Assembly (NCBI RefSeq): GCF_910592395.1
Contig: NC_088309.1
Span: 25,422,599 to 25,486,598, forward strand
Length of the DNA: 64,000 nt
From: Lineus longissimus
Taxonomy: Eukaryota > Nemertea > Pilidiophora > Heteronemertea > Lineidae
Direction: 5' to 3'
The notes beneath the pieces are model-generated. The model did not search any database and was not told the DNA's origin. It saw nothing but the letters and a program-made list of their open reading frames with translations. Positions 17,320-61,400 of the stretch are shown here, in pieces. The first letter of the stretch is position 1. Each line of letters begins with the position of its first letter. The position numbers were made by a program, and so were the translations under genes.

Positions 17320-20300
17320 TCATGATAACGTTAAGATCCTTATTTCTTCCGTTAGGACTTTTGTCATGTGTATTGCCTTGTCTGCCTCTTCACCTCCGAT
17401 CTCCTTCAGGGCTATCCCAGCTGCTTCACGTACTGTTGATATCACATCATTACGCCTGGAAAAAGAAGAAGAGCATTTTAAGTGCATTTGCATGTAAGAT
17501 AACTCCAGTACGGCAATGTTGATCTTTGAAACTTAACCCACAAATACAAACAATGTACGCAAGCACTTTCCAACTGATGTTGCAATATTTCGAATTCAAC
17601 CCAACAGAGACATGATCCCTCGACATCACCATGGTAACAGCAATGTCATACAGTACTGATGCGGTGACACAGGAATCCCAACTATCGATGAGAATCCCAA
17701 CTATTGCTGGTATTTGTATCACTTCTTGCTCTCAGCTCCAAATTCTGATCTAAGTTTAGTTCAGATTTAGCTTTATGGAGGGATATCAAATCAGTATGAC
17801 CAACAATGCCTAGCTTTGCAAAATCAAATATTGGATTGGCAATCAACTGAAAGTAACCAACCATAACATTGCATGCAAATAATATTGTAAATTCTATTCA
17901 ATTTTTGTCCTCAAAAGGAGTAGTATACTGGGCCTGTGTCGTGAAGTACCAGCTGAATATTGATAACGAATATCACTCACTATGCACTGAATGATTAATT
18001 GGCTTGCACAAATAAAATGCAATTGGCAATCAACTGAAAGTAACCAACCATAACATTGCATGCAAATAATATTGTAAATTCTATTCAATTTTTGTCCTCA
18101 AAAGGAGTAGTATACTGGGCCTGTGTCGTGAAGTACCAGCTGAATATTGATAACGAATATCACTCACTATGCACTGAATGATTAATTGGCTTGCACAAAT
18201 AAAATGCAATTGGATCATGGGGAATCCCAAGTGTACGAATTAGATTCGGTATCAGAACATGTTTTGGTTCAAGGGCTTGGACTGGGACTGGTTTCACTTA
18301 CAGGCTTGGTGCGTGTGTTATCATTTATACTGAGTGATAGTGCATTCTCAACAGAATAGGACACGGGCAGAGGCTGAAGGCAACATGGATTCAAATGGTA
18401 CCACCAGAATTAGCAAAGAGTCAGACACGGAAAATGGTGAGCTTGTGACTTTATCTTTATTTCAAAGTTTCTTTTGTTTTACCTCTTGGTGTAGGCAATC
18501 CAAAGTAGACTGCGCACAATTGATTGTGACACCACCTAAATGGTGTATTTCAACCACTGTCCATGAGATCTAATGAGATCTAATACGAATGGGATTCATG
18601 ATGAATTTTGTCTGGGTCAAAGTGTAATCTGACCTCCATTGACTCAATCTACCTGCCTCCTCTACCAATTAGGAATGGCAATTCAATAACCCATGATAAA
18701 TTTTCTGTCGGTCCAAGTGTAATCACATCATTCTGTGAGGTACAAAATTCTGAGGTACAACTGCTAATTTAATTGTTTTCTTCTTCATGCAGTTGAAGAT
18801 CTTGATGACAGCCTGAAGGTCACGAGTGAACCTATCCAAGCTGAGGCAGCCGACACCATGGAAGAAAAAAGACGTCTGCCATCTGACAAAGAAAACAGTA
18901 TCCAAGTTGAAGAGATCAGCTCATCTGTTGTTACAGAAATCCAAAAGGATGAAGATGGATTCTTAGTTGGATTGGAGACGATGGTCCCAGCAAATGTTCC
19001 CATCGCAGAGGAGGATTACCCAGAATTTAAGAAAGACGGCCAGTTTGATGCGCTTTTGGTGTATCACGAGAATGACCAAGAAAAAGCATGCTATTGTATT
19101 GACAGATTATGCAGCCAGAATCATCTGAGTGGTCGACGTATACGCATTGCAACCCTTGAACAGAGGAAAGGTGGAAAGAATGAGATTGAGAGACTCGAGT
19201 ACTATTGCAAAAAGAGCACATTTTTGATGATGCTGCTGACTGAAAACTTTTGTGACGATGATAACTGGATGCGATTCTACCAAAACACAATCATCATGGA
19301 AAGTATTCTCAACCGCGAAAAGAAATGGTGTGCCATACCAATTCATACAGAATACTGGAGAAAACCTGTGAGGTACAAGGTACCCTTTGCACTGCAAGGC
19401 ATCCGAGGGATCTGCTTGACTGATAATGCTTGGGACGAGGGTGTCATAAACATGATACAGCAAAAGGAGCCAATTCTATTAGACCGAGAATGGAAACAAG
19501 AGCGAGAATTCAAAACGTGGTTAATGAGGGAACAGGGAATACGTTTAAAGAAATGGAAACGTGAGAAGGAGAATCTGAAGAAGGAGAGAGAACAAATACA
19601 GCAGAAAACAGCAGAATGTGACAGTGACACCATGGAGTATGATACACAACCCACCTTACATCTCAACAACCCTGGCTTTCAAACACAGAGAAACATTGGC
19701 TCGACACGGGAACAATGTCCGCCAGGAGTTCCACGGCAAGCCTGGGATTATGACTCAAATAATTCTGTACCACAAAATCAATTTACGGGACCTTATTCTC
19801 AAGGTGGTGCCACTAGTATGCCAAATCCATTCCCTGGTGGACCTGGTCCATCACCGGAACAGGTGATGCAGTTGCAAACACTTATGCAAATGTATCCGAA
19901 CATCCTGCAAGTTCAAGCACCTATGAACTTCAGTATCAATGCAAGGGTGATTAATTTTGGAAATAACAGTCAGACGATGATTCAAACGCCAATGGAAGAT
20001 GACATTGATGAGGAAGACTTCTGAACAACTTATAGTCCAACAAGAGCTCAAAAGCATGCAGAGGCCAGATGCCAATGAGTGCCGGCAAGGTTTTATGTTG
20101 GCCCCATTGCGTGGCCGGGTATGGTGTCAAAACGGTACTATTTAGCACATCACTAAACCAGTGTTGTTTTTGCATTACTCGGTAGTGATTTCCGTGAAAA
20201 AACATTTTGTAAGTTGTTACTTGATGTTGGCAGTAACTAGTTTTCGTGGTGAATCTTATGTTATAGTATTTCAGATTTTGGAGACCAGACTGGAAACACA

Positions 20301-23300
20301 CAGTTTTCTTATCACTGACTGAAAATTAATATTTGTAACTATACATGTGCATGTATTGAATTCTGAGAAGTAAGCAGAATCTGAAATCCCAGTCTAGACT
20401 CGCCCCCATACTAGTCTACTCCTCGCCTAACTTAAGTGTATAACTACTGTGTTCATTTATTGAATAAAGTTGATAACTCCAGAAAGCAGGCTTACCATAA
20501 TGTGACAAGCTTTGGGACGGCCTTCGTGGCCTTCAATCGTCCGAGAGCCAAACACCCTGTTTCTCGTACTAGACGATCGCTACTGTTCAAGATATTGATA
20601 ATCCTGTCGACAATTCTCAACCTCGTAATGTTACTTTTACAATGCATCTTAGACAGCGTGATTGCTGCCACGGCGCACACATTGAAGTCATCATCGTCAA
20701 GAAGATCCATCAAGGCCTCCACCACGGCAGGACTTTTGTATTTTTCTGAAGACAGATTTCAAAGGATTACATGTACATGTATGCAGTGCATAAAACATGA
20801 CATCATCAGAAGCTTATATAATTCAAAATCGGCAATATACAGTACAATACAGCCCATATCTTGTCATTTTGGACATGTCACTTTATTTTAATTATCACGG
20901 ATGTCCCTAGCCTAAATGAGTTCAAATCATCACCCAGAGTATGAGACTGTTCAAGAGTAAGCTCTTTCGTGCCATACACTCACCGAGGTTAGAAATAGCT
21001 TCAACCCGGACAGATGACTCCATCTCAAACACTTTCTTGATAGCATAGCTCTCAACAGCATAGTCTTCAACCCGGCTCCAAAATGGTTCGAGCTCACCAT
21101 TGTCCCTCATGCAAAATTCTGAGGATAAAAGACAGAATGTGGGCATTTATAAAAGTTTGTATTCACAATCCTGAAATTTGATAGTACTATATGGGCTCAT
21201 GACCTTAATTCAAAAAGGAAATGCAACAAGCTTTCTTTTTTTGAACTTGTAGTAGCCATATGAGATACATCTGATACTCTGGCCTACTTAACTGTAAGCT
21301 ATCAAATTACAAACTCCACCAAATACATATCCTCGAGGCTTTTGACTAAAATTGCAGAATAGCTTTTACATCCTAATGATTACTTTAACCAAGTATTCAT
21401 AAAGGTCTTTATAAACACTTGCTTTAAAACCATAAATTTCAGTCACAAGAGACCTTACGGCCAAGTTAATGATTACATTTCATGAACATCCAATGATGGG
21501 ACACACTGGTATGAAATGTCCAATACCCTATCAGCAAACAGCTGTTTCTGCCAATAACCAATAAGGAACCACTCACCGTCATAACGTCTTCTGGTCATCT
21601 GTCCTTTCACACTCAATTCCCTCTTGAGTATGGATTCCAGCCATTGTTTATCTTCATTTGAGGTGAAGAGACTTTTTAGATTGTTATCAAACTCCTTCGT
21701 AAACACTTGCTTCATGCTGAGAAAAAAAGTTGTCACATCAAAATTTGGAATGGACCAGAAACCTTGTATCCATGCCCTAAAACTAAAAGCTTGTAGAGTA
21801 TACCAGACTGTACCATTTTAATTAGTGCCCGCCCCACATTAACTTGAAGCATTTAACATTGAACAGTGCACCCTTTTCCAGTCAATGATGCATTTAGAGG
21901 TCAGAAATCAGCCCCACAGTTTCATGATTTGGCTAGCCCTGCCCTAGACTCCATGTAACTTTCCAGATTATAAAACAAATACCCAGCAAGGATGTTTCTT
22001 ACTTGATAAACATTAACTATATGCAATGTTTAATAGCTTAAATAAAAATTTCTCACCTATTCCAATCAACAGTCTCTTTTTTGGCAAAATGTTTATCCCA
22101 GAAGTCATTCTTTCTTTGGTTTTGCTTCGAATTTCTTGAAGTACGCACCCGCATTTGAGGTCGTGTTTGACTTCTTTCTACTGAAAAGTTAGTAAATTTC
22201 AATAAGTTTAGGATTTCGAAAAAAATTATGATATCAAATGCTGAAAACTCTTTACAGTTACAATGTAGAGTGATTGAGCTGTTCATTCACTTTCACTATC
22301 AATGTCACTTTCACTATCAATATAAAATGAGTGAGGTATCAGCAGGTGTAGATACAACGAGAAAACACTTTGAAATTTGCCATGAATTTTCAGAAATTGA
22401 TATACAACATGTAGCCATAAATATCACATCTTTCCCTATTATGGCAAACTCTGGGTTATAACGCTAATCACTAAAATAACACTTACATTTTGGTCTCTCT
22501 TGTTCAGCTTCTTCTTTTTCTGAAAAGTTCCAGCGCAAAATAGATAACAAACCCAGAAAATGTAGGGATTTGAAGGCAAAGAAAACACGAAAGGCACACA
22601 TCTGTGGAATTGAGAGTCACAGACTAATGAGCAGCTATCAGTCGGAACTTTCACTGAAGACAACAGAGTCAGAAACCAGACAGAGATGGTGGACTTAATG
22701 ACAAGCATTCTGTAAAAGCTTGTCAAGGGAGTGGACAGGAGTGGGTCATTTTTGCCTCAGTTTGCTAGTGATGTAGCCCTAGCAGTTAAAATAAGGAAAT
22801 TGGCATGAATTGAGTGAGTGGACTGTCTACCTAAAAAACCCACCTTCTTTTGCCTCCTCCCTTGCTTCTTTATTCTTGACATTGGTTATTTCTGTCTGTA
22901 TATCTTCGATCACATTAGCAAAGTCTGTTTCAAATTTGTCTTTATCGACACTGTACCAGTCAAATCGAGAGAGCTGAAGTCTCCTAAAAGACAGAAGAAG
23001 ACGTAAGATTTTATAACGAAGCCTTGGCATTATAAAGAGACAATATAGGCAGCAGCTAAGCAGGCAAGATAAAGTTACACAAAGCCGCCAATAGAGGTCT
23101 CTCACACCTCACAGTAGGTCGAAATGATTCACGCTTGTACGAGGGATATATTTAGTGCTGAGTCTGACATGACCAAGGGCCCCAGACATGAACTTATTCT
23201 GAGCTAAGGTTTCCCAGGACATCTCCACAAATCCTTATGAAAGACTTGGGCAATTACTCACATGCCAACATCCATAAGTGGGAATAGGAAGTCTTTGCTT

Positions 23301-25496
23301 TTGAATCCCACAGGAAAGATAGGTTTCTGCGATACATAGGCAAGGGCAAGCTCATCACGGCAATACTTTGACTGGACAGAGTATTCAGTCACAAGGGAGA
23401 GAAACACCTGAAAACAGAGAACATCAAACATGTCAATTTCGATGCTCATTGATCTCAGTATATAATTCTTGAAAGGAGCAGGATCTATCAAATAACGAAG
23501 GGACATGCCGAAGTCTCACACTAAGGTGCAATGGTGGGGTTTGAACCAGGAACCTCTTGATGAATAGATGACCACAAGCCAAGAGTCCTTTTTCAATGGA
23601 TTTTGCCTCACCTTTGCATCAATAATTGCCTGTCCAATCTTGCTGAGGAAGTCCACACCTGCCTTCAGCCCAACCATGTCCACCCAGACACTAATGCCAT
23701 TTTCTTCTAAGGCATCTGAAAGATAAGTATGATGCTTGTAGAAAGTCTTGAGGAGTGTACATGTATATGGCTGTTCAGTACATACATGTAGGTTGCACAC
23801 TGGCGAACACATTAGTTCTGGAAATGACTTTTCAGTTTGTTTTTTTTACTTTCTTTGGAAGACCATGATAACATAATATGTACAACATAACTGCAGTATG
23901 GACACAGTCACTGGAGCCAGCAAAAACTTTCTTAACACACCTGGATTGAATATACATATTGTATACACAGGAGCGTGAAGTTTAAGTCAAATAGATGCTT
24001 GCGAGCACAAAGTCGTAAAAGCATTTACTTGACTTGAACTTCACGCTCCTGTGATTGTATAAACAGAAGTATAAAATAACCACATTCCATAGCCCAAGGG
24101 GAAAATACAGTTAACATTTTCAACAGAGAAAATATTGATTGGTAACCTTTATTGTACATATGTAATGAATACACATTGATTTCTACACCTGAACAGAATA
24201 TCAATAGTGGGATAACTTTACATTCATTGTTGATTACAATAACCACTACTTGTACATTTTAAATAATTCAAAAATGAATGCTGAGGGAACTCTTCAAGCC
24301 ACACCCATCACTAGTATGATGTGCATGTAACAGTTAGGGGGATGGGGGATGATAGATTGTTGCATCTATCATGTCCATCAGCCACACCATTTCAGGAGCT
24401 TTTTAAATCAAAAAATGTTCCACACAGAGTATCCTTTCCATCCTATATCCTTCAGTCCTTTTCTGGAGATGTTATCGCAAGGGGGAGAGTTTATTAAATG
24501 GCAATACAAATGTTTTTAATTTAATTTAATATATTATAGTGAATGTCAGCCAGTACAATCTGATTGATATCATTATTTTATATCTGCTGTAAGCTTTCAT
24601 GAAATAAGGTCTAAGGATGACATCATGCCATCTTACTTTCTCCTCAGCGCAGATGAATTCTAAGAATGTCACAAGACTTATTCAATGAATCACAGCACTT
24701 GAGATGTCCGTAAATGCTATAGAGGCCAAAGGACTACATAACATAAACTGTATGGAGCAATACTCAATACAATCTCTTTCATGTCTTTCAAATGATACGA
24801 CACTCAATGGGTGATCTGTCATGTACATTGTAGATCAACATTACAGTCTAACAATGGGTAGACGGGCGAATCGCCTATATATATTTTTGACATGATGATA
24901 TAGATCCCACTTGACCTACTTGAATAAAACTTTCACTCATAAAAACAAATTTATGAACTGCAAATAAAACAATAATTTTGGATTGTCTTTCCTTGATTTC
25001 AATAATAATGATGATATGGTACAATAGTCTTGGGCCTACACACAGCACTAGTGCCAGTGGAACTAAAGAAGAAAAACATTATGTAATATATTGCTCATTT
25101 TTCAAATACAAGTCTTAGCTTACAACTTGTACACTTGTTCACAAGGAACAAGTAAGTAGTTACCAGAAGTATTTCAAAACTGAAAATTTCCATACAAGTA
25201 AGTCTATGTTTTGTGAGCTTAATACTGAAAAGTTTTATGTCACCCCCCCCCCCCGGCCATTCCCAATCTTCACTACATGTACAATACTACGTACCTCTAA
25301 TTTTCTCCATCATTTTCTTATCACTGTGACTGTAACTAATCATGATATCCTGTGGTCCAATCTCCTGCTGGCTCTTGCTCGCTGCCATGGTCATGGTCGG
25401 CTTGACAGCCGGTTCCCTGTCAGGTGGTGGTTTTACCTTGATCTCAGATGGAGCTGATGGAGAACTAGCCCGGCTACTGGAAGCACCTGATCCCAT
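17320..25496 (-). CDS. TIR-HEAT protein A (N-myristoylation motif, TIR domain, HEAT repeats)
   Basis: Ten coding exons join in phase to 469 residues: 25496-25295, 23715-23612, 23407-23262, 22983-22844, 22519-22487, 22180-22057, 21716-21577, 21118-20984, 20745-20496, 17455-17320. The N terminus MGSGASSSRASS fits the N-myristoyltransferase pattern (Gly2, Ser6). The TIR domain (about 50-190) starts QDIMISYSHSDKK, has ALEENGISVWVDMVGLKAG, and ends YCRDELALAYVSQKPIFPVG; the Glu of CRDEL aligns with the catalytic Glu of SARM1-type TIRs. A charged linker follows (about 190-215), then a helical region and PBS-lyase-type HEAT repeats (about 330-460, e.g. DRLVRETGCLALGRLKATKA). No known gene name is recognised. 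The 3-kb last intron holds a TICAM-like gene on the other strand. Paralogue B is head-to-head. Confidence 0.88.
17836..18209. repeat. Perfect tandem duplication, 2 x 187 bp
   Basis: The unit starting TTGGCAATCAACTGAAAGTA at 17836 recurs at 18023 with no difference that I could find over 187 bp. It lies 0.2-0.5 kb upstream of the TICAM-like start codon, inside the last intron of TIR-HEAT A. It is very recent or an assembly artefact. Confidence 0.9.
18385..20024 (+). CDS. TICAM/TRIF-like TIR adaptor nested in a TIR-HEAT intron
   Basis: Two coding exons, 18385-18436 and 18793-20024, give 427 residues. The start is the ATG of MDSNGTTRISK (AACATGG context). An acidic Ser-rich N terminus precedes a TIR domain at about 102-240: FDALLVYHENDQEKA, STFLMMLLTENF, and VPFALQGIRGI, which closely mirrors the PFALQ segment of TICAM2/TRAM. 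LLTENF plus FALQ is TICAM-type rather than MyD88-type. The region usually holding the BB-loop proline reads RKGGKNE. A charged helix, probably coiled coil (about 245-290), is followed by a Pro/Gln/Asn/Met-rich tail. The tail ends with VINFGNNSQTM (403-413), a possible RHIM-like core, and an acidic stop. In vertebrates TICAM1/2 couple Toll-like receptors to interferon and NF-kB signalling. Orthology to TICAM1 or TICAM2 singly is not settled. Confidence 0.85.
20463..20468 (+). terminator. Poly(A) signal of the TICAM-like gene
   Basis: AATAAA about 440 nt after the stop. It lies only about 28 bp before the splice-donor end (20496) of the penultimate TIR-HEAT A exon on the other strand, so the two transcripts may overlap antisense. 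Confidence 0.6.
23967..24052. repeat. Near-perfect 34-bp hairpin (86 nt), pre-miRNA-sized
   Basis: The arm 23967-24000 (starting ACAGGAGCGTGAAGTT) pairs with 24019-24052 (ending AACTTCACGCTCCTGT). As RNA the stem has two G-U wobbles and one mismatch over 34 bp, with an 18-nt loop. It lies in intron 1 of TIR-HEAT A. It could be a microRNA-like hairpin or a very small palindromic MITE. Confidence 0.75.
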
Positions 25497-25497
25497 A

Positions 25498-25503
25498 TCA
25501 CAT
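25498..25503 (-). promoter_or_regulatory. Start-stop minimal uORF just before the TIR-HEAT A start codon
   Basis: On the minus strand the leader reads GTACCAACAGATGTGATATGGG. An ATG directly followed by TGA (25503-25498) ends one nucleotide before the main ATG (25496). A likely acceptor (TATTCTCAG) just above 25513 puts this in the mature leader. Such elements can restrain translation. Confidence 0.5.
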
Positions 25504-25513
25504 CTGTTGGTAC

Positions 25514-26811
25514 CTGAGAATATCCAGAAAAAAACCTGATGTTCACACTAAGTCAGCAATATATTTTACGGTATTTTTTTACTATTGTGACCTCCTGAAG
25601 GATTGAGACTGAGAGTGAGAATGTATTGAATAGGCATATCTGAATATTAAACAGATGATGTTAATGTGCTACAAATCTAATTAACTGGACAGGATAAACC
25701 AGCATTGTCTCATCACTGATGAAAAACACTGTTTCGGGTTTGTTTGATTTTTAGAAAACAGTTTTAACACATTCAAAACTTCACTCTGCTCACCCCAAAT
25801 GTTGATTCTACTAGCTACTGCATGTGCAAGATAGGCACATAAGAGTGTTTCTGATAATCGTTGAGGGGAGACGGAGAGGGGGGCTATCAGTCAGCAAACA
25901 GGGGAGGGGGGAGGGGCCATTGATTCAGTGGCCTGTGATTCAAACAATCAAATGATTATGATAATGACAAATCGATGTCTCCATGAAGATGATCATGAAT
26001 GACATGATGATGATGAATATGATGATGATAAAGTCTTGTCTCTTGAAGAATACAAGTAGGCCTAGGCCTATAGTCCTAAAAGATCCGATGGAAAAACAAC
26101 ACTAACTTATTTTTGCTGATAGTGGTATTACTAGTATCTCATTCACGGTGATCATCTACATCTTGACTGACTCCAAGTATTGAATAAAAACCACTTCAGA
26201 AGAAACCAAGGAAAAATAATTTGATGAATGAAAAATTTCCGACACTCGGCGGCCATGTGTAAACAACATTCCAGGACACCGTTGTAACGGCTCCGTTGAT
26301 TGGTTAAAAAATTAAAGGTTTATCTTGCTATGGGGCGCAAACAATGAAAATATAAACCAATTCGACCCCGAGTGACTCTTACCAGACGACTAGGGGTTTT
26401 ACTTGATGCGATTTGTAAAAATTCCTTGATGGTCAAGATGTAGCTACACAGACCATTTGAAAAACTTCTATACGTGATCAGTGGTAGAACTTCTTGCGAC
26501 GTTTTAGGACTTGTGTAGTACCAGGTCCACCATGCCCACTGCCACGGGAGTGTAATGCTCAATTTGTCCAACACTGACCGCATTGGCGCTCTATGCGGAA
26601 GTAAAACCATTTACATCATTGGTCAGGATTTCATGTTTATGGCATGACATAAGTCGCCTCTACGTCATCCGATCATGTCCCTTTGATGTACATAAAATCA
26701 TTATTTGACTCATGAACTTCTGGAGCATGTAAAAAAGGTAAAGCAACTGAAGTGAATACAGTTGCAGCTAGGCAAAATGGTGGTGATTTCTGCAGTCGTT
26801 GTAAAAGTGGT
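25514..26811. promoter_or_regulatory. Shared upstream region of the divergent TIR-HEAT genes
   Basis: About 1.3 kb between the coding starts of paralogues A and B. A 96-codon minus-strand frame at 26610-26320 ending near a consensus donor (CTG|GTAAGA) may be a 5' non-coding exon of gene A, but it is not recognisable as protein. A run of 12 C (25243-25254) lies nearby, in intron 1 of gene A, just downstream of its first coding exon. Confidence 0.4.
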
Positions 26812-29800
26812 ATGGGCTGTTCTTCTTCGGTTGTTGTGAGGCAGATAAGACGTACTCGACCACAGCCTGACGGTCGCAACATAACCATCAATAGTAAGAA
26901 TGACGCTATCTTTGTTGTCAATGGTCACTGATGATGCTGAGCAGTTGCACTGGTGCCAGTGGGCAGTGCCGTGTCGACAAAGTCGCAATAGTTACTGAAT
27001 GATTGAATGACGATGGCCGAATGACTGATCAATGCAATATTAGCATGGTGGGTGTCTTTGCTCTTTTGCTGATTAACTGATCTATTGATAAGGCTGAGTT
27101 GATTTCCTGGTTTACTTGTAATCGACACTCCATGGGTGTTACAATTAGGCCTATTATTAATCATATCATGGCTCATGTTTTATGATAGTTTACGTTCATA
27201 CCAATTGAGTAGCAAGCACCATTGAAATCAACAACTACATGTAACCTGTAGAGGGGATGCTACTAACAAACAACAGCTACCTTCAAGATTGTCACAACCA
27301 ACTCGGACGTCATAAGACTCATATCAAAACTTTGTATACAAGACGAAGTCTGGACAATGAAGCCATATAATCGTAATAACACCTCTGACCTTCACCCATT
27401 CTCCTTCCAGTTATTGAGGCTTCAAGTGTCACTGAAAAGAGCGATCTTAACCTCAACCATAACGGTTTATCCAACAACCGTTCCAAACACACAGACTTGG
27501 CTGTGATAACTGTGACTTCAATTCCGTCCACATCTAACCCAGCAGAGCATAGTTCCTTGGATGACTTGGGCAAGATGTCGATTTCAGGCAGTAACATTGA
27601 TGTCATGATCAGCTTTGATGAAGCAGATAAAGACAAGGCCAAGATCTTTGCTGGTGAGTGGGATAATTTGGTGCAAACCAAATGGATGGGCAATAAATTG
27701 CTTTGCTTCACTTATTTGCAGTTTCCTATGTCAGATCAGGGTGAAGATTTTGATACTGATAGGACCACGGAGGCCACCGGTAAACAGTTATTAGTCACAC
27801 CTGGTCAGCCAATGCTATGTTATGAACACATTAATAGATGATGCCAGATTTTAAAACTATCCCCTTCTCTTTCAGATAAATTGACCAAAGCTGGTCTCAA
27901 AGTATGGATTGGGATAGGGAAATCTGGGGGAGAGAAAGGCCTAGCCATTGTTCAGTGCAAGGTAAGCGATGTGGTATGAATTTCTTTTCAGTGGTTATGT
28001 TAAACCAATAAGATAAGGTCACTTCGCCTCATGGCTTTGCGACAAAATGTGTGCACTCCAATGAGCAATGCAAGTAGGCCACAAGACCCTTGGCCCTTGA
28101 AGATATGTAATTATGCTACCAGGGTTAATTGTAATTTTATCTGATAAGCAATGGAATAGAAGTATGAACTGCTAAATCTGAATGACAGTAGGCATGTATG
28201 TCCAGGGACTTAAAATCAACCAGTTGGTTGCCAGAGACTGGGATGACTATTTCCATCACAGAATTTGATTTCATGTAAGGAGGAATTCAAAGGAAGCATT
28301 GAAATGTAGTTTTGCAAATATATGATAGAATCTGCTTTCTACTCTTTTCAGGCTTTCATCCAAATCATGAGTGCACAAGGAGCAGCTTCTAAGGCACTCC
28401 AGGACGAACTGTCACTTGCTTACATCAGTAACACACCCATATTTCCAGTTGGCCTTGCAAACTTTTCAGCAATTTCTCCAAATTTAGACAGTGGCAGGTG
28501 TGTATATGATGAGATTGCATGCAGTATTTCACTTTTTAAAACAATTCCTGACCAAAATCCATATATGCCTAGGTTTCGATTGTAGATAAGATGCAAAAAA
28601 CCTTGGTGGTCAGTATTTGTGTGAAGATATGATTTCCTAACACGTCATGCCTATTCATGGGCAGCATGTGAAGGTGTCTGAAGCAATAATCTGATAAATG
28701 CTAAAACAAAATACTGAACCAAGGGGTTAAAATTTCATTTTCATTGACATCAAAGTTATATGTTCTTATCTGTGCTGCATGAATTGAACATATTATCAGT
28801 GTTGACATTCTATTTCCAGACGCTTGATTCTTGCCAAAATCAACTGGACATTTTTCACAAAAGACGAGCACTATGAGAGCAGATTTGCAAGTTTCTTGAA
28901 TAGTCTCAGGACAGAGATTGAGAGTGGCATCCCGGACCCTGATGCAGATGTCGAAGACGATGAAAGGTTCACATCTATGAATAGAACGAAAGGAATGGAA
29001 ATAGACTATGAAGAGGATCAAGACATGGTAGAGTTCATGGCCGAATTTTCAAAGAAGACTGGCGATGAAACTCAGGATTTCTGGACTCGTCATTTCAATG
29101 AGGAAAGCCAGGTGCCCTGGTTACAATTCCGTGATGCATTCACCGACGATTATAAAGTGGAGATTGTCCGCGTGTTTGGAATGGACAAAGAAAAATGGCT
29201 CTGTGGATTGATTTATAGAGACATTTTTGAGCTTGCGAAAGATGTGAAAAAGTCCAGTTACTTGCAGTTTTGTATTAACAAGACCGATGACCCACACTAT
29301 TTCTTCTCCCGAGTTCAGGACTACGCCACAGCTATTGTGGCTATGAAAGAAGTGTTTGACATGGATAGCACTGTCCGATTGACAGCTGTACAGAATTTAG
29401 GTAAGTACTAGAGCGCCTTTTCCTGTGGATGTGGCCTTGCCAATAGCAAAGTACAAGCAATATTCTTCAAGGACTTTGAATCAACATTGCAGTTGGCAGA
29501 AAATCAAACAAAATTTCCATATTTGCTTTCCTGCTATGGATGCGCAGGAATAACTATTATGTTGGTTACTGATATCATTGACATTACCGTATTTGTTAAT
29601 TCTTACAGGAAAATTCCGAACTCCCTCAGTTATCACCACGTTGATGGAATTGTTAGAAGATGCAGAGCCAAATATGAGAGCAGTGGCAGCATTAGCTTTA
29701 GGAAGATCAGGTATGACATAACCGTTGAGCATTTACGTTTTACACAGAATTTATTTACTGGAATATTCATCTATCAGTATTCATTTTGAAATTCTGGTCA

Positions 29801-30668
29801 AGATTTTGCTTGCTTACTTACTGAGTCCCTTTTTGTTGTTTAGTCAGCATTGTAATGTGTGTGAGTACGAGATCATGTTCATTAGAATGACAGATTTTGA
29901 TTGGGAATGATTGGCTTTCTGACTGCCACGCACTCTTGTATGAGGTCCAATTTCAGCAGGGCTTTGTGGGAGGCTTGCTTTAGGAGGATGTGCCCACCTG
30001 TCATGTAGATGGTATCATAACCCAATGTCCTTCAATTTTAGGGAAGAAAACAAAGAAAGTTGTTGATCATCTTCTCAAGTCGCTGGAAGATGAGGACAGG
30101 TTGGTTAGAGAAAGTGTGTGTCTCTCCTTGGGGAGTCTCAAAGCTGAAAGAGCTGTGCAACCTGTACTCGATAGGTGGTAAGTTGCTGGTTGCTCTGGTA
30201 TTGTCTCCATTGGACCTAATCTGATCGAGAAGTAATGTGTTTTGGCTATAACCCATCTGAATTGAAAAAATAGGATAGCATCACCGAGTCGTGTGATAAA
30301 TGCTATGCCGACACAAATGTAGGTGGCCTACAGTGTTTAAAAACTGGCCATTTCAGGTGTTTCCAACTGATTAATTTTAGTCCTATAAAACCAAATGCTC
30401 ACTTCACCATCAGTGAGAAAATGAAAACATGGCAAGGAAAAACAGTGCTTTTAATCGGATTGTTTTGTTGCACCAAAACAATGGTTTATGTCCAACAATA
30501 TAAGTTGCTTTGTTTTCCCATTTCAGGCGTAATGATCCAATATCAACAGTTCGAGAGGCGGCTAGGATTGCAATCACAAAGATCGGAGGAGATGAGGCAG
30601 CTGGTGCCATCAAAGTAACACAGGTCCTATCAGAAGAAATGGCAAACTTGAGAAAAAAGAGAACCTGA
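26812..30668 (+). CDS. TIR-HEAT protein B (paralogue of A)
   Basis: Eight exons join in phase to 505 residues: 26812-26893, 27411-27653, 27876-27961, 28352-28497, 28820-29400, 29609-29710, 30042-30177, 30527-30668. The first exon is inferred: MGCSSSVVVRQIRR ends in a GTAAGA donor whose phase fits the acceptor at 27410. MGCSSS is a dual myristoyl/palmitoyl-type start. The TIR domain (about 85-240) has SNIDVMISFDEADKD, AGLKVWIG, and LQDELSLAYISNTPIFPVG, with Glu kept at the SARM1 catalytic position. A long acidic, helical middle region follows. HEAT repeats fill about 365-500: STVRLTAVQNLG, DRLVRESVCLSLGSLKAERA, STVREAARIAITKIGGDEA. The C terminus is basic (NLRKKRT). Exon 28820-29400 equals five exons of gene A. 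Function is inferred to be TIR signalling or NAD cleavage at membranes. Confidence 0.87.
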
Positions 30669-57544: not shown

Positions 57545-58498
57545 TTTCACTTTTGGTTGTGATCGTCGTTAAGCTTAACCATTGAATGTAAACTTGGCAA
57601 GAAACATTCCGTACAGACCTTTGAAGGAATATGGGGACAAGTTAGAAAATGCAAGCTCCAGTGAACCCACACAACTGTTTAACATGGGGGAGCCCCCCTC
57701 ACCGTAGTTCCTAAAATCATTGATTTCTCTGTCCTCACAGTATGTCAGTGTTGATGCAGCAGTTGTTTTGGCAAAGACATGTTTTTTCGGAGTTTCTGAA
57801 ACCTAGAGCGCTACTCAATAGGCGGCTAACAAGAAAGCACGCATTTACTGTTGTTGGCCAACGTATGTGTACACTGAACTTGGGATGTGCGTCGGCCCCG
57901 TGTTGTAAGGCCGTCCAGTGCCAGTTGGTGCGTTTTTCGCTGATTTGTGCAAAATTCAACATATCTCAAAAGTTCAATGGTTGACCCTCGATTTTTTTTT
58001 ATATTTGTGTAGCGTAAGCAACTGTCTTTCATGGGAGAATGGTCCTTGTAAGAATTATTCAGGAAGAAATGTATAACATTTGGGGTTTTTCGTGATTGTC
58101 CGGCCCAATTGGCAATATTGCCATTTGGGATGGTGAACAGAGCTTGGAGCAAATGCGACGCTTATGATTTTTTTAAAGAAATAAAATGCCCTTTAACATA
58201 CTGCAGAATCAGGGGAATCGGGCGTTTCCAGTGATATACGACACAGATGGGTTGTCCTCATGCATTCACTTTGGAAACGGATTTTAAAATAGATGTTACG
58301 TCGTGTTAATGGGGCACGTCATCATCGCGTACATTTGGGAAAAACTCCCTAACGAGACCTCAGGAAAAAAAATTCGCGAACGGGACTTCTCCGTGTGCTT
58401 AGAATACGAGAGAGATGAGCGACCAGTGTAAAGGGAACGAAATTCAAAATGGCTGAAGCTGAACAAAAAATTTAAAATCCTCATCAAAATCAGAAATC
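57545..58498. promoter_or_regulatory. Divergent upstream region, UBASH3 / TICRR, invaded by a repeat
   Basis: 954 bp between divergent start codons. Overlapping open frames on both strands (57735-58152) show no protein family. The repeat at 58212-58358 ends 140 bp before the TICRR ATG. Confidence 0.45.
58212..58358 (-). repeat. Interspersed repeat, copy 2, next to the TICRR start
   Basis: The reverse complement matches 33956-34105 nearly throughout, including ACGCGATGATGACGTGCCCC. It lies just upstream of the TICRR start codon. Confidence 0.85.
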
Positions 58499-61400
58499 AT
58501 GTCGTTCGACGGCGATGTTTTTCAAATCGCTTTCATGGTCGATTTGCAGTCATATAAGAGGAATAAGGAGAACGAGTTGGCTTGCCAACAAGTTGCCAAC
58601 CAAATCCGTTTGAGTGCATTGAAACTGCTGACCCATTTCTGTCAAGTATTTTCTCAAACCAAAACAAGTTCCCATAACTTGAGGTGGGGATACACTTTTT
58701 ACAATTCATGCTCCCTGGCATCGCCAAATGTACGGTCAGACTTTAAAGAATTTAATCTAAAGAACTTTGATGTATTTGAGAGCGATGTAGAAGAAAGACT
58801 TGAGAATGAGCGGATGATGGAGGAAGGTTCCATTTCCAAGGGAGTGAGGTGCCGTTCTGAAGCCACGAAATATGGACTGATGGACTTGTCCAATGACTTC
58901 CCATGGGGACGCCCAGAAATCATGTCCCCTGTCCGTCCGTCACGTCACAAAAAAGCCCAACCAAAGGCCCAAGGGTGGAAAAACATTTCATTTGTGTTCT
59001 CCCATTGCCCGAACACTGAAGAGGACATAGGCAGTTTTATGTATGGTCCAGTTGGAAAACAGTTTGAAGAGGATGTGGCAAATTCAAGTAACATCAAGGC
59101 AAAAGACGTATTGAACAGGATCACAACTCCACCATTGCTCCGAGAAATTTGTGATGGGAAGAGAATAAGAATATTCTTGGTAGATTTGACTGAAAAAGTG
59201 GATGTGACTTGGAATGTGTCGTCGCTAACACAGGTATACACTAGCTACATTACTTAACATTTTGTGATCTTAGGACGCTTTGAAGCAAAAATACTAACCA
59301 GATAGTTGGCATAGCCAAAGGTTCGGATCTTTTTGGTCCTTATGCAGATGAACAGATGACCTCACTTTTACTGTTGTTAGTTTTTTTAGACTAAAATTAT
59401 CCTAACATCATCAGGTACTATGTACTAAATTGACCTTTCTTTCAAATTTGCAGCCACACAGCAGTCCTGGACTCCAGCTATTCAATGACGTCCTGCAAGA
59501 ATTCTCAGGGAGAGTTATTCCTCTTGGTGCTATACTTCAACTTGGCTCACCGACTCAGTGCCAGATTGTCCCAAATTTGAGAACTGTAGATGATCGAACT
59601 TGTGCTGCAAATGAAAAGGTGGCTGTTCCCCATCTTGATGCCTTGGTACCGTTTTCATCAGTTAGCGACCATATGATAGGGAATGCTAATGTAACAACTG
59701 CAAACGCTGTCCATGATGGTAAAGCAGGGACTGGGTTGGTCTTCTTAACAGGTTAGTAGTCTTGCTTTTACATTCCTGTACAAGCAGTTTGTGCTGTTTA
59801 ATAAGTGTCAAGGCCAAGGGAAACAAAATACTAATTGAAAATAATTACAACTGTTTTCAATTAAAAGATGACAGTTATTTTTTTGAAACCCCTAAACCCC
59901 AACAAGATAATTTACCACACTTCTTCCATACGTATGGTAATTTTTCTCCCATATTCAGTGATATGTTCCTCTATGCTGTAGCAATATTTAACCTCAACCT
60001 TTATTGACTTAAAATTGAAAACCAACTTTTTTTTTGTAGAAAAAGGCAAGCAAGTTTGTTACCTAGACACACAGAGTTTGTTAAACCAAGGGGAAACTCT
60101 CAACCACCGTCTTAATGGCCAGTTAAAGAGTGGAAAAGATGCAAAAGTTTCGACTGTGGTACTTGCCGTCTCTGGCACACTGCAACGAGGAGCCCTGCCT
60201 CTAGAATATTTGTCTAATACTGATGTGTATCTCTGCACCCAGAGTAAGAAGTATAGCAAAGAGGCTCTCTTCTACAGTATTCTGGCTGAAATCTCAAAGC
60301 AGAATCTAGCTCTGGTGAGTACTTCAAAATAGTTACTTTCAAATTTCCACGGGCTCAAGTTGTTGATCAGGTGTTACCGATAGCTTTTTGTTCTAATATA
60401 ATACCTTTGGTCTCAAAATACGTTTTTATTTAGAAGATAAGGTATGATGGAACATTGCTCCAATAAACCGTTACAACTTAGTTGTGCATTGTTACATTGA
60501 AACCTTTCTCTTTCAAGGTAGGATAAACTAAGTTATAACTGTATTCATTTTATTTTTCAGGTGGTAGACTTCACATCACTTGTACGCAATACATGTTGGA
60601 AAGCTATCCTGCAGCCACTGACCTCCGTCTCGGCCACTTTAACAGTCATCAAGCCAGACCATATCCTATTTGTCGAAAAGCTCCTCACGTCCAAACTGAT
60701 TGCCGAGTCAAAACATGAGGGACTGCAGTCATTCCTGGACAGAACAGTCAATCATCTTTTAGAAGGTGTATCAATTCGTCAGGTTCACCAGGCCATGCCA
60801 TCAGGTAAGAATACCAAAGAAAAAGATTGATTATGTGCAGTGCCATTTTCTCCAGCAATGGACTATATTGTGGTAAATCTTGTTTTTGGCGTTTGACAAG
60901 CACCATATACTCAATTGTCTTTAGATGTGGTGAATTGGCTCTGACCTCTGGTCTGCCTCTGTCCTCCTAGTGTCAAGATTCTCCAACTGCTGTTTCTGCT
61001 GAACATTAAACAGAGTGCAGTGTAGAAGGATCACCTGCACAATAGGCATATCCATTCTTCTGATCTACTGTCCGTTTGATTTTTCCTTTCAGATCTGGAA
61101 AGTGTAGTGTCGAATGAACACTCAGACACCAAGATGCTCAGCAGCATTTTGGAGCCTTGGTATCTTCAGGGTTGCAGACAGGCCACCATGCAGTCAGTGG
61201 TGGAGTCCCTGAAGGACGGGTCACTTGGGCCTGGTAGTGAGGAATTACAAACGATACGAAAACTCCAGAAGCTCTATCGTTGTGCCAGTAATCCAGATCC
61301 GACTCGGGCAAATCCGAAAAAAGTTGAGAAACAACAGGAAGAAAAGAAAGAAGAAGGAAAGGGTGAGCACGTTGACTGATACCTGATTCTACTGCTAAGT

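Follow-up and report, generated by a model that had tools for sequence, protein, structure and literature searches.

Organization of the TIR locus

The window analyzed here, 64,000 nucleotides at full length, lies on a contig (C2) of the 391-Mb genome of Lineus longissimus, a nemertean and a protostome. Three genes, A, B and C, were modeled in 13 kb of it by joining stop-free exons at GT-AG junctions. Gene A, which encodes a TIR-EF-HEAT protein of 469 aa, is on the minus strand with its coding part at 17320..25496 and has 10 coding exons (25295-25496, 23612-23715, 23262-23407, 22844-22983, 22487-22519, 22057-22180, 21577-21716, 20984-21118, 20496-20745 and 17320-17455); its model is backed by Pfam and by the NCBI protein LOC135483234 of L. 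longissimus, which matches it at 100% over A's length. The NCBI model carries an upstream exon (26107..26155, minus strand, exon end placed by eye) with an earlier in-frame ATG at 26155. From the start on the 25496 side the protein begins MGSGASSS, and the pattern of start sequences in the family favors this as the probable true start over the upstream ATG. Gene B, a divergent TIR-EF-HEAT gene recognized from its joined exons, Pfam and a tree, is on the plus strand at 27411..30668 and has seven coding exons (27411-27653, 27876-27961, 28352-28497, 28820-29400, 29609-29710, 30042-30177 and 30527-30668), and its product has 477 aa when counted from the first acceptor and 423 aa when counted from the first in-frame Met, the start codon being uncertain. 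The 5′ exon of A (26155) and the first recognized exon of B (27411) are ~1.26 kb apart, and the interval between the two coding parts (25497..27410) may contain a shared promoter region. All five junctions common to A and B have equal phase (1, 0, 2, 1, 2), while four introns are private to A and one to B.

Gene C, the TICAM-like gene, is on the plus strand at 18385-20024 and encodes 427 aa in two exons (18385-18436 and 18793-20024) separated by a phase 1 intron, as in its paralogue, so that a retrocopy origin is unlikely. It lies entirely inside the last intron of A (intron 9, 3,040 bp, 17456..20495, minus strand), on the opposite strand. The first-pass annotation had described this geometry, with divergent A and B genes starting about 1.3 kb apart, equal exon phases at most of their shared junctions and a gene nested in the 3-kb last intron of A, and the models bear it out.

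Several other features of the window were recorded. Directly upstream of C, a 187-bp unit is perfectly duplicated in tandem (17835-18213, 100% matches), which is either a recent event or an assembly effect. Intron 1 of A contains an inverted repeat (~23965-24055) whose arms are near reverse complements and which, by eye, looks like a small mobile element. At 58463-59257, a long open frame with MSFDGDVFQIAFMVDLQS resembles the beginning of a conserved gene.

A and B belong to an old family of TIR-HEAT proteins

Pfam placed TIR_2 and HEAT_2 in both A (1.9e-19 and 2.7e-17) and B (5.7e-9 and 1.5e-21), in line with the common domain order proposed for them. Between the two domains is a Cbl EF-hand-like match that is under the Pfam cut-off in both proteins (E 0.079 in A, 0.0042 in B), giving the animal TIR-HEAT layout of an N-terminal TIR, an EF-like middle and a C-terminal HEAT region. 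A protein search with A, in which only the 7,996 candidates with the most common words were scored, returned 88 proteins at E<=1e-5; 85 of these (P0004-P0088, A included) were taken as the TIR-HEAT family and P0089-P0091 were set aside as partial matches. Both TIR and HEAT-type Pfam domains are listed for 82 of the 85. Every named member is an animal, and the range covers the placozoan Trichoplax, acoels, molluscs, annelids, bryozoans, a brachiopod, another nemertean, echinoderms, hemichordates, lancelets and a tunicate; the family is thus widespread and conserved across animals. A is a plain member of this group of invertebrate proteins, known as 'Protein tirA-like', most records of which are labeled uncharacterized.

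In a 66-row tree built from B and 65 of the 85 members, B forms a clade with the mollusc proteins Solemya2 and Elysia (100/100), apart from the A-type genes of molluscs and Lineus, which rules out that A and B arose by recent tandem duplication. The depth of the split between the two types is weakly supported (88/57), with B and Elysia flagged as long branches. Judging from this tree, A and B are separate older lineages and not a recent pair. The A-type and B-type proteins of Solemya, encoded on contigs of equal length and with distant tags, suggest a possible old linkage without adjacency.

A third Lineus TIR-HEAT gene, A2, was found at C2:21.87 Mb; its recognized exons are open, its N-terminus is MGNTGSS, and its model is incomplete by one short exon. 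A2 groups with the Tubulanus sequence (SH-aLRT 99), with A outside that pair in the best tree. AU tests did not reject a clade of A, A2 and Tubulanus (p 0.52) and did not firmly reject A with A2 (p 0.075). The pairing with Tubulanus speaks against A and A2 as Lineus-only duplicates, although the constraint joining the two was not rejected, and it implies that their split may predate that of these nemerteans.

A has a predicted N-myristoylation start. In the family, a myristoylation consensus is found exactly at the start of 43 of the 85 members and within 60 residues in at least eight of the remaining 42, 40 of which were inspected; Solemya2 and Elysia have no such consensus at the start. Of 47 aligned rows, 46 retain a catalytic-type Glu, which is residue 143 of P0004 and residue 121 of A. 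The B-type TIRs (B, Solemya2 and Elysia) have no GLxAGVDF loop of the A type and retain the DEL motif, and the sequence pattern of NADase TIRs, Glu plus BB loop, is present in A only, B having the Glu and not the loop. A six-row TIR profile for A ranked Cat1 (3.7e-8) and SARM1 (5e-7) ahead of TLRs (TLR15 at 7.5e-6, TLR1 at 7e-4), and the predicted fold of A agrees with this ranking, as the SARM1 TIR is among the Foldseek matches of its structure model (pLDDT 82.7). The same Glu is carried by TLR TIRs whose signaling involves no NAD cleavage, and on its own it is therefore no proof of activity in A. Like SARM1, A combines a similar TIR, the catalytic-type Glu and helical repeats in one protein, but its TIR is N-terminal with HEAT following, in place of the ARM-SAM-SAM-TIR order, and Pfam finds no SAM in it.

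Gene C encodes a TIR closest to TRAM and TRIF

The TIR region of C (19020..19481, plus strand) has no Pfam TIR match, and its assignment is based on PDB sequence and profile searches, a genome search with human TRAM, pairwise z-scores and a tree. A PDB search with C (E<=10) returned three TRAM chains (6.4e-6 to 1.8e-5) and a chance match at 1.2, and a four-row profile of C returned TRAM alone (2.2e-7 to 2.7e-6). TRIF itself was unmatched in both searches. Human TRIF as a query behaves in the same way, TRAM being its only other TIR match at E<=10. In the reverse direction, a human TRAM fragment searched against the whole Lineus genome found C first (1.4e-4) and the paralogue of C second (6.2e-4), followed by a leucine-rich-repeat TIR receptor at 0.017. 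Pairwise z-scores of the three nemertean proteins (C, P0002 and P0003) were 13.5-14.9 with TRAM and 6.5-9.2 with TRIF, compared to -1.0 to 6.3 in 30 control comparisons with two TIR-HEAT and eight other worm TIRs; the highest controls were P0003 with L003 (6.3), P0003 with L001 (4.8) and P0002 with L003 (4.1). Among the worm control rows, L006 alone was recognized as a leucine-rich-repeat receptor, and TLR-like is a label of convenience for the others.

In an 18-row tree, which had no MyD88, TIRAP or BCAP rows and drew a long-branch warning from the tree program, C, P0002, P0003 and two repeat-borne sequences described below join TRIF and TRAM with 99/95 support. Conceivably C, as a divergent TIR adaptor, came to look like TRAM by convergence, or by common loss of the standard TIR boxes, and not by descent. 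TICAM TIRs are long-branched, and a tree of few rows in which long branches meet could produce such a grouping. We consider this improbable given that best matches agree in both directions, between the PDB and the whole genome, that C and TRAM align over ~110 residues with common blocks, and that, besides the tree support, an AU test weighed against grouping TRIF/TRAM with the five other worm TIR rows (p 0.043). The structure model of C is poor (pLDDT 41.6, from three sequences), and a fold search with it gave nothing under 0.001, the best match being histidyl-tRNA synthetase (2.8e-3) with TRAM second (3.9e-3). The TIR of C is closest to TRIF/TRAM, as expected of a TICAM, by the searches, the z-scores and the 18-row tree, the last of these without MyD88 and TIRAP. 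By these sequence comparisons C is more TICAM-like than Pfam indicates, and we count its TICAM affinity, called in the first-pass annotation, among the results; the call is all the more surprising in a nemertean, a protostome.

TICAM-like TIRs also occur in four similar repeat copies (L011, L012, L013 and L015) on contigs C9 and C11. Three of the copies match L011 at 91-98% over 178 to 2,811 bases, with two 66-base pieces at 86-89%, and their open frames over the TIR are 172 to 271 aa long. In L011, another frame encodes a CCHC-like zinc knuckle, seen by eye. Such repeats, or horizontal transfer, could in principle have brought a TICAM into a nemertean, and the copies are what speaks for that route. 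We regard it as very unlikely, since a search of both strands of all four copies gave no tail motif of the C type, the two copies included in the 18-row tree fall outside the group of C and its paralogues, and C retains the intron that it has in common with its paralogue. One scan of viral contigs contained no relative of C. Descent within the TICAM lineage is the reading that we carry forward.

The tail of C has a TRIF-like layout

After its TIR, C has a charged stretch (19482..19607, plus strand; predicted helical in the low-confidence model), a Pro/Gln-rich linker, an 18-residue RHIM-like block near the C-terminus (residues 398-415, 19932..19985, plus strand) and an acidic end. Among C, P0002 and P0003, nine of 18 positions of the block are invariant, compared to 22 of 102 in the preceding linker and 81 of 165 in the TIR (block vs linker, Fisher p 0.015, the block having been picked after inspection). 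In all three proteins this block is the top-scoring window against the RHIMs of RIPK1, RIPK3 and TRIF. Shuffled tails reached the same score in 32 of 2000 cases for C, 379 of 2000 for P0002 and 121 of 2000 for P0003, and 1, 43 and 23, respectively, of 40,362 windows from the 85 TIR-HEAT proteins were equal or better (top score there 13.0, against 12.7 for C), indicating a suggestive likeness to RHIM in C and a weak one in the other two. A strict RHIM is ruled out by both pattern and Pfam: the core reads INFG or VNFG and does not fit [IV]Q[ILV]GxxNx[MLI], and Pfam finds no RHIM in C. A profile of the tail found nothing in the PDB. Insect cRHIMs likewise deviate from the mammalian core (PMC9531809), which makes a variant RHIM in C possible. 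RIPK1 homologues with a RHIM tetrad are reported from some spiralians (PMC12119088), so that a partner for C is conceivable, but the Lineus genome has no RHIM over the cut-off in a search that disregarded introns.

TRAM (TICAM2) has the TIR closest to that of C by sequence, but C has a long tail with the RHIM-like stretch and, like P0002 and P0003, no MG start of the kind N-myristoylated in TRAM. With TRIF (TICAM1) it shares, by eye and using TRIF letters from PDB 8rlm, the order of a TIR followed by a charged stretch, a linker rich in Pro, a RHIM or RHIM-like block and an acidic end. It is shorter than TRIF (427 aa vs 721 in the human chain of 8rlm) and differs from it in having no N-terminal domain, strict RHIM, pLxIS or TRAF6 motif: Pfam finds no TRIF N-terminal domain in C or in P0001-P0003, pLxIS is absent from C, P0002 and P0003, and one TRAF6-like match occurs in P0002 only (both patterns from PMC9440496).

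Arrangement of TIR genes elsewhere in the genome

The first-pass annotation had taken three TIR genes in 13 kb as a sign of a co-evolving locus. The clustering itself stands out, as ~0.25% of random sites would have another TIR locus within 13 kb, a post hoc estimate from ~38 TIR loci in the genome, which is a lower bound with repeat copies excluded and lists merged by hand. Chance placement would thus rarely bring three loci into 13 kb, but A and B have a common ancestor and the figure was computed after the fact. A further weak TIR_2 match (E 0.009, under the cut-off) is at C2:25357005-25357148, ~84 kb from the cluster. The idea of a single co-evolving unit found no support: the last intron of A2 is only ~0.3 kb and the 9-kb stretch around A2 has no C-like match, the paralogue of C (C2:6.94 Mb) is distant from every TIR-HEAT exon found in the genome, and A and B are separate older lineages. 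Joint action of A, B and C is unproven, given that the arrangement does not recur at the A and C paralogues identified in this genome.

The three genes may equally well be functionally unrelated, C having entered an intron of A by chance and A and B being merely old neighbors. Nested genes are common in animals, and the arrangement is missing both at the paralogue of C and at A2, while the low chance expectation points the other way. We put this at about even odds, and it is compatible with the interpretation set out below.

Proposed reading: a compact locus of three different TIR proteins

The reading that we narrowly favor is a compact nemertean TIR locus made of three different parts. A, from an old animal family, would be a TIR-EF-HEAT protein anchored to the membrane by a predicted N-myristoylation, with a TIR closest to NAD-cleaving TIRs such as SARM1 and a putative NADase activity. 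B, a paralogue separated by an older split and degenerate in its BB loop, would probably be a cytosolic partner or regulator and not an enzyme. C would be an adaptor of the TICAM lineage with no catalytic Glu and a TRIF-like layout, most likely binding receptor or adaptor TIRs, and its tail would most likely seed downstream assembly, possibly by amyloid signaling. Any cooperation among the three proteins is likewise conjectural.

The new element is C, a TIR closest to TRAM and TRIF in a nemertean, as the TICAM family is described in print as chordate. In the parts of the Aplysia and oyster surveys considered, no TICAM is reported and the TICAM branch is described as chordate; a TIR survey restricts TRIF-like TIRs to gnathostomes (PMC7075850), and a TICAM survey places the origin of the family at lancelets (PMC9440496). 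The Aplysia and oyster surveys, in the same portions, recognize an ARM-TIR class that may include TIR-HEAT genes, and they do not describe a TIR-HEAT family. The literature considered also included PMC9334734, PMC4346834 and PMC7885112. Among the literature matches listed, from a search with most subscription literature outside it, no paper concerned a protostome TICAM or this TIR-HEAT family and none was a functional study of the family; none of five TIR/HEAT phrases occurred in the full texts searched.

A bolder extension, which we hold to be a speculative and rather doubtful one, is that a TRIF-type adaptor, a TIR joined to an amyloid-type tail, predates the split of protostomes and deuterostomes, that the MyD88-independent TIR branch would then not be a chordate invention, and that in the worm this adaptor shares its locus, and works, with a TIR NADase at the membrane and a partner whose TIR is degenerate. 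If true, the presence of a TICAM of TRIF-like layout in a nemertean would date the adaptor back to early bilaterians, and the origin of TIR-to-RHIM signaling would become testable.
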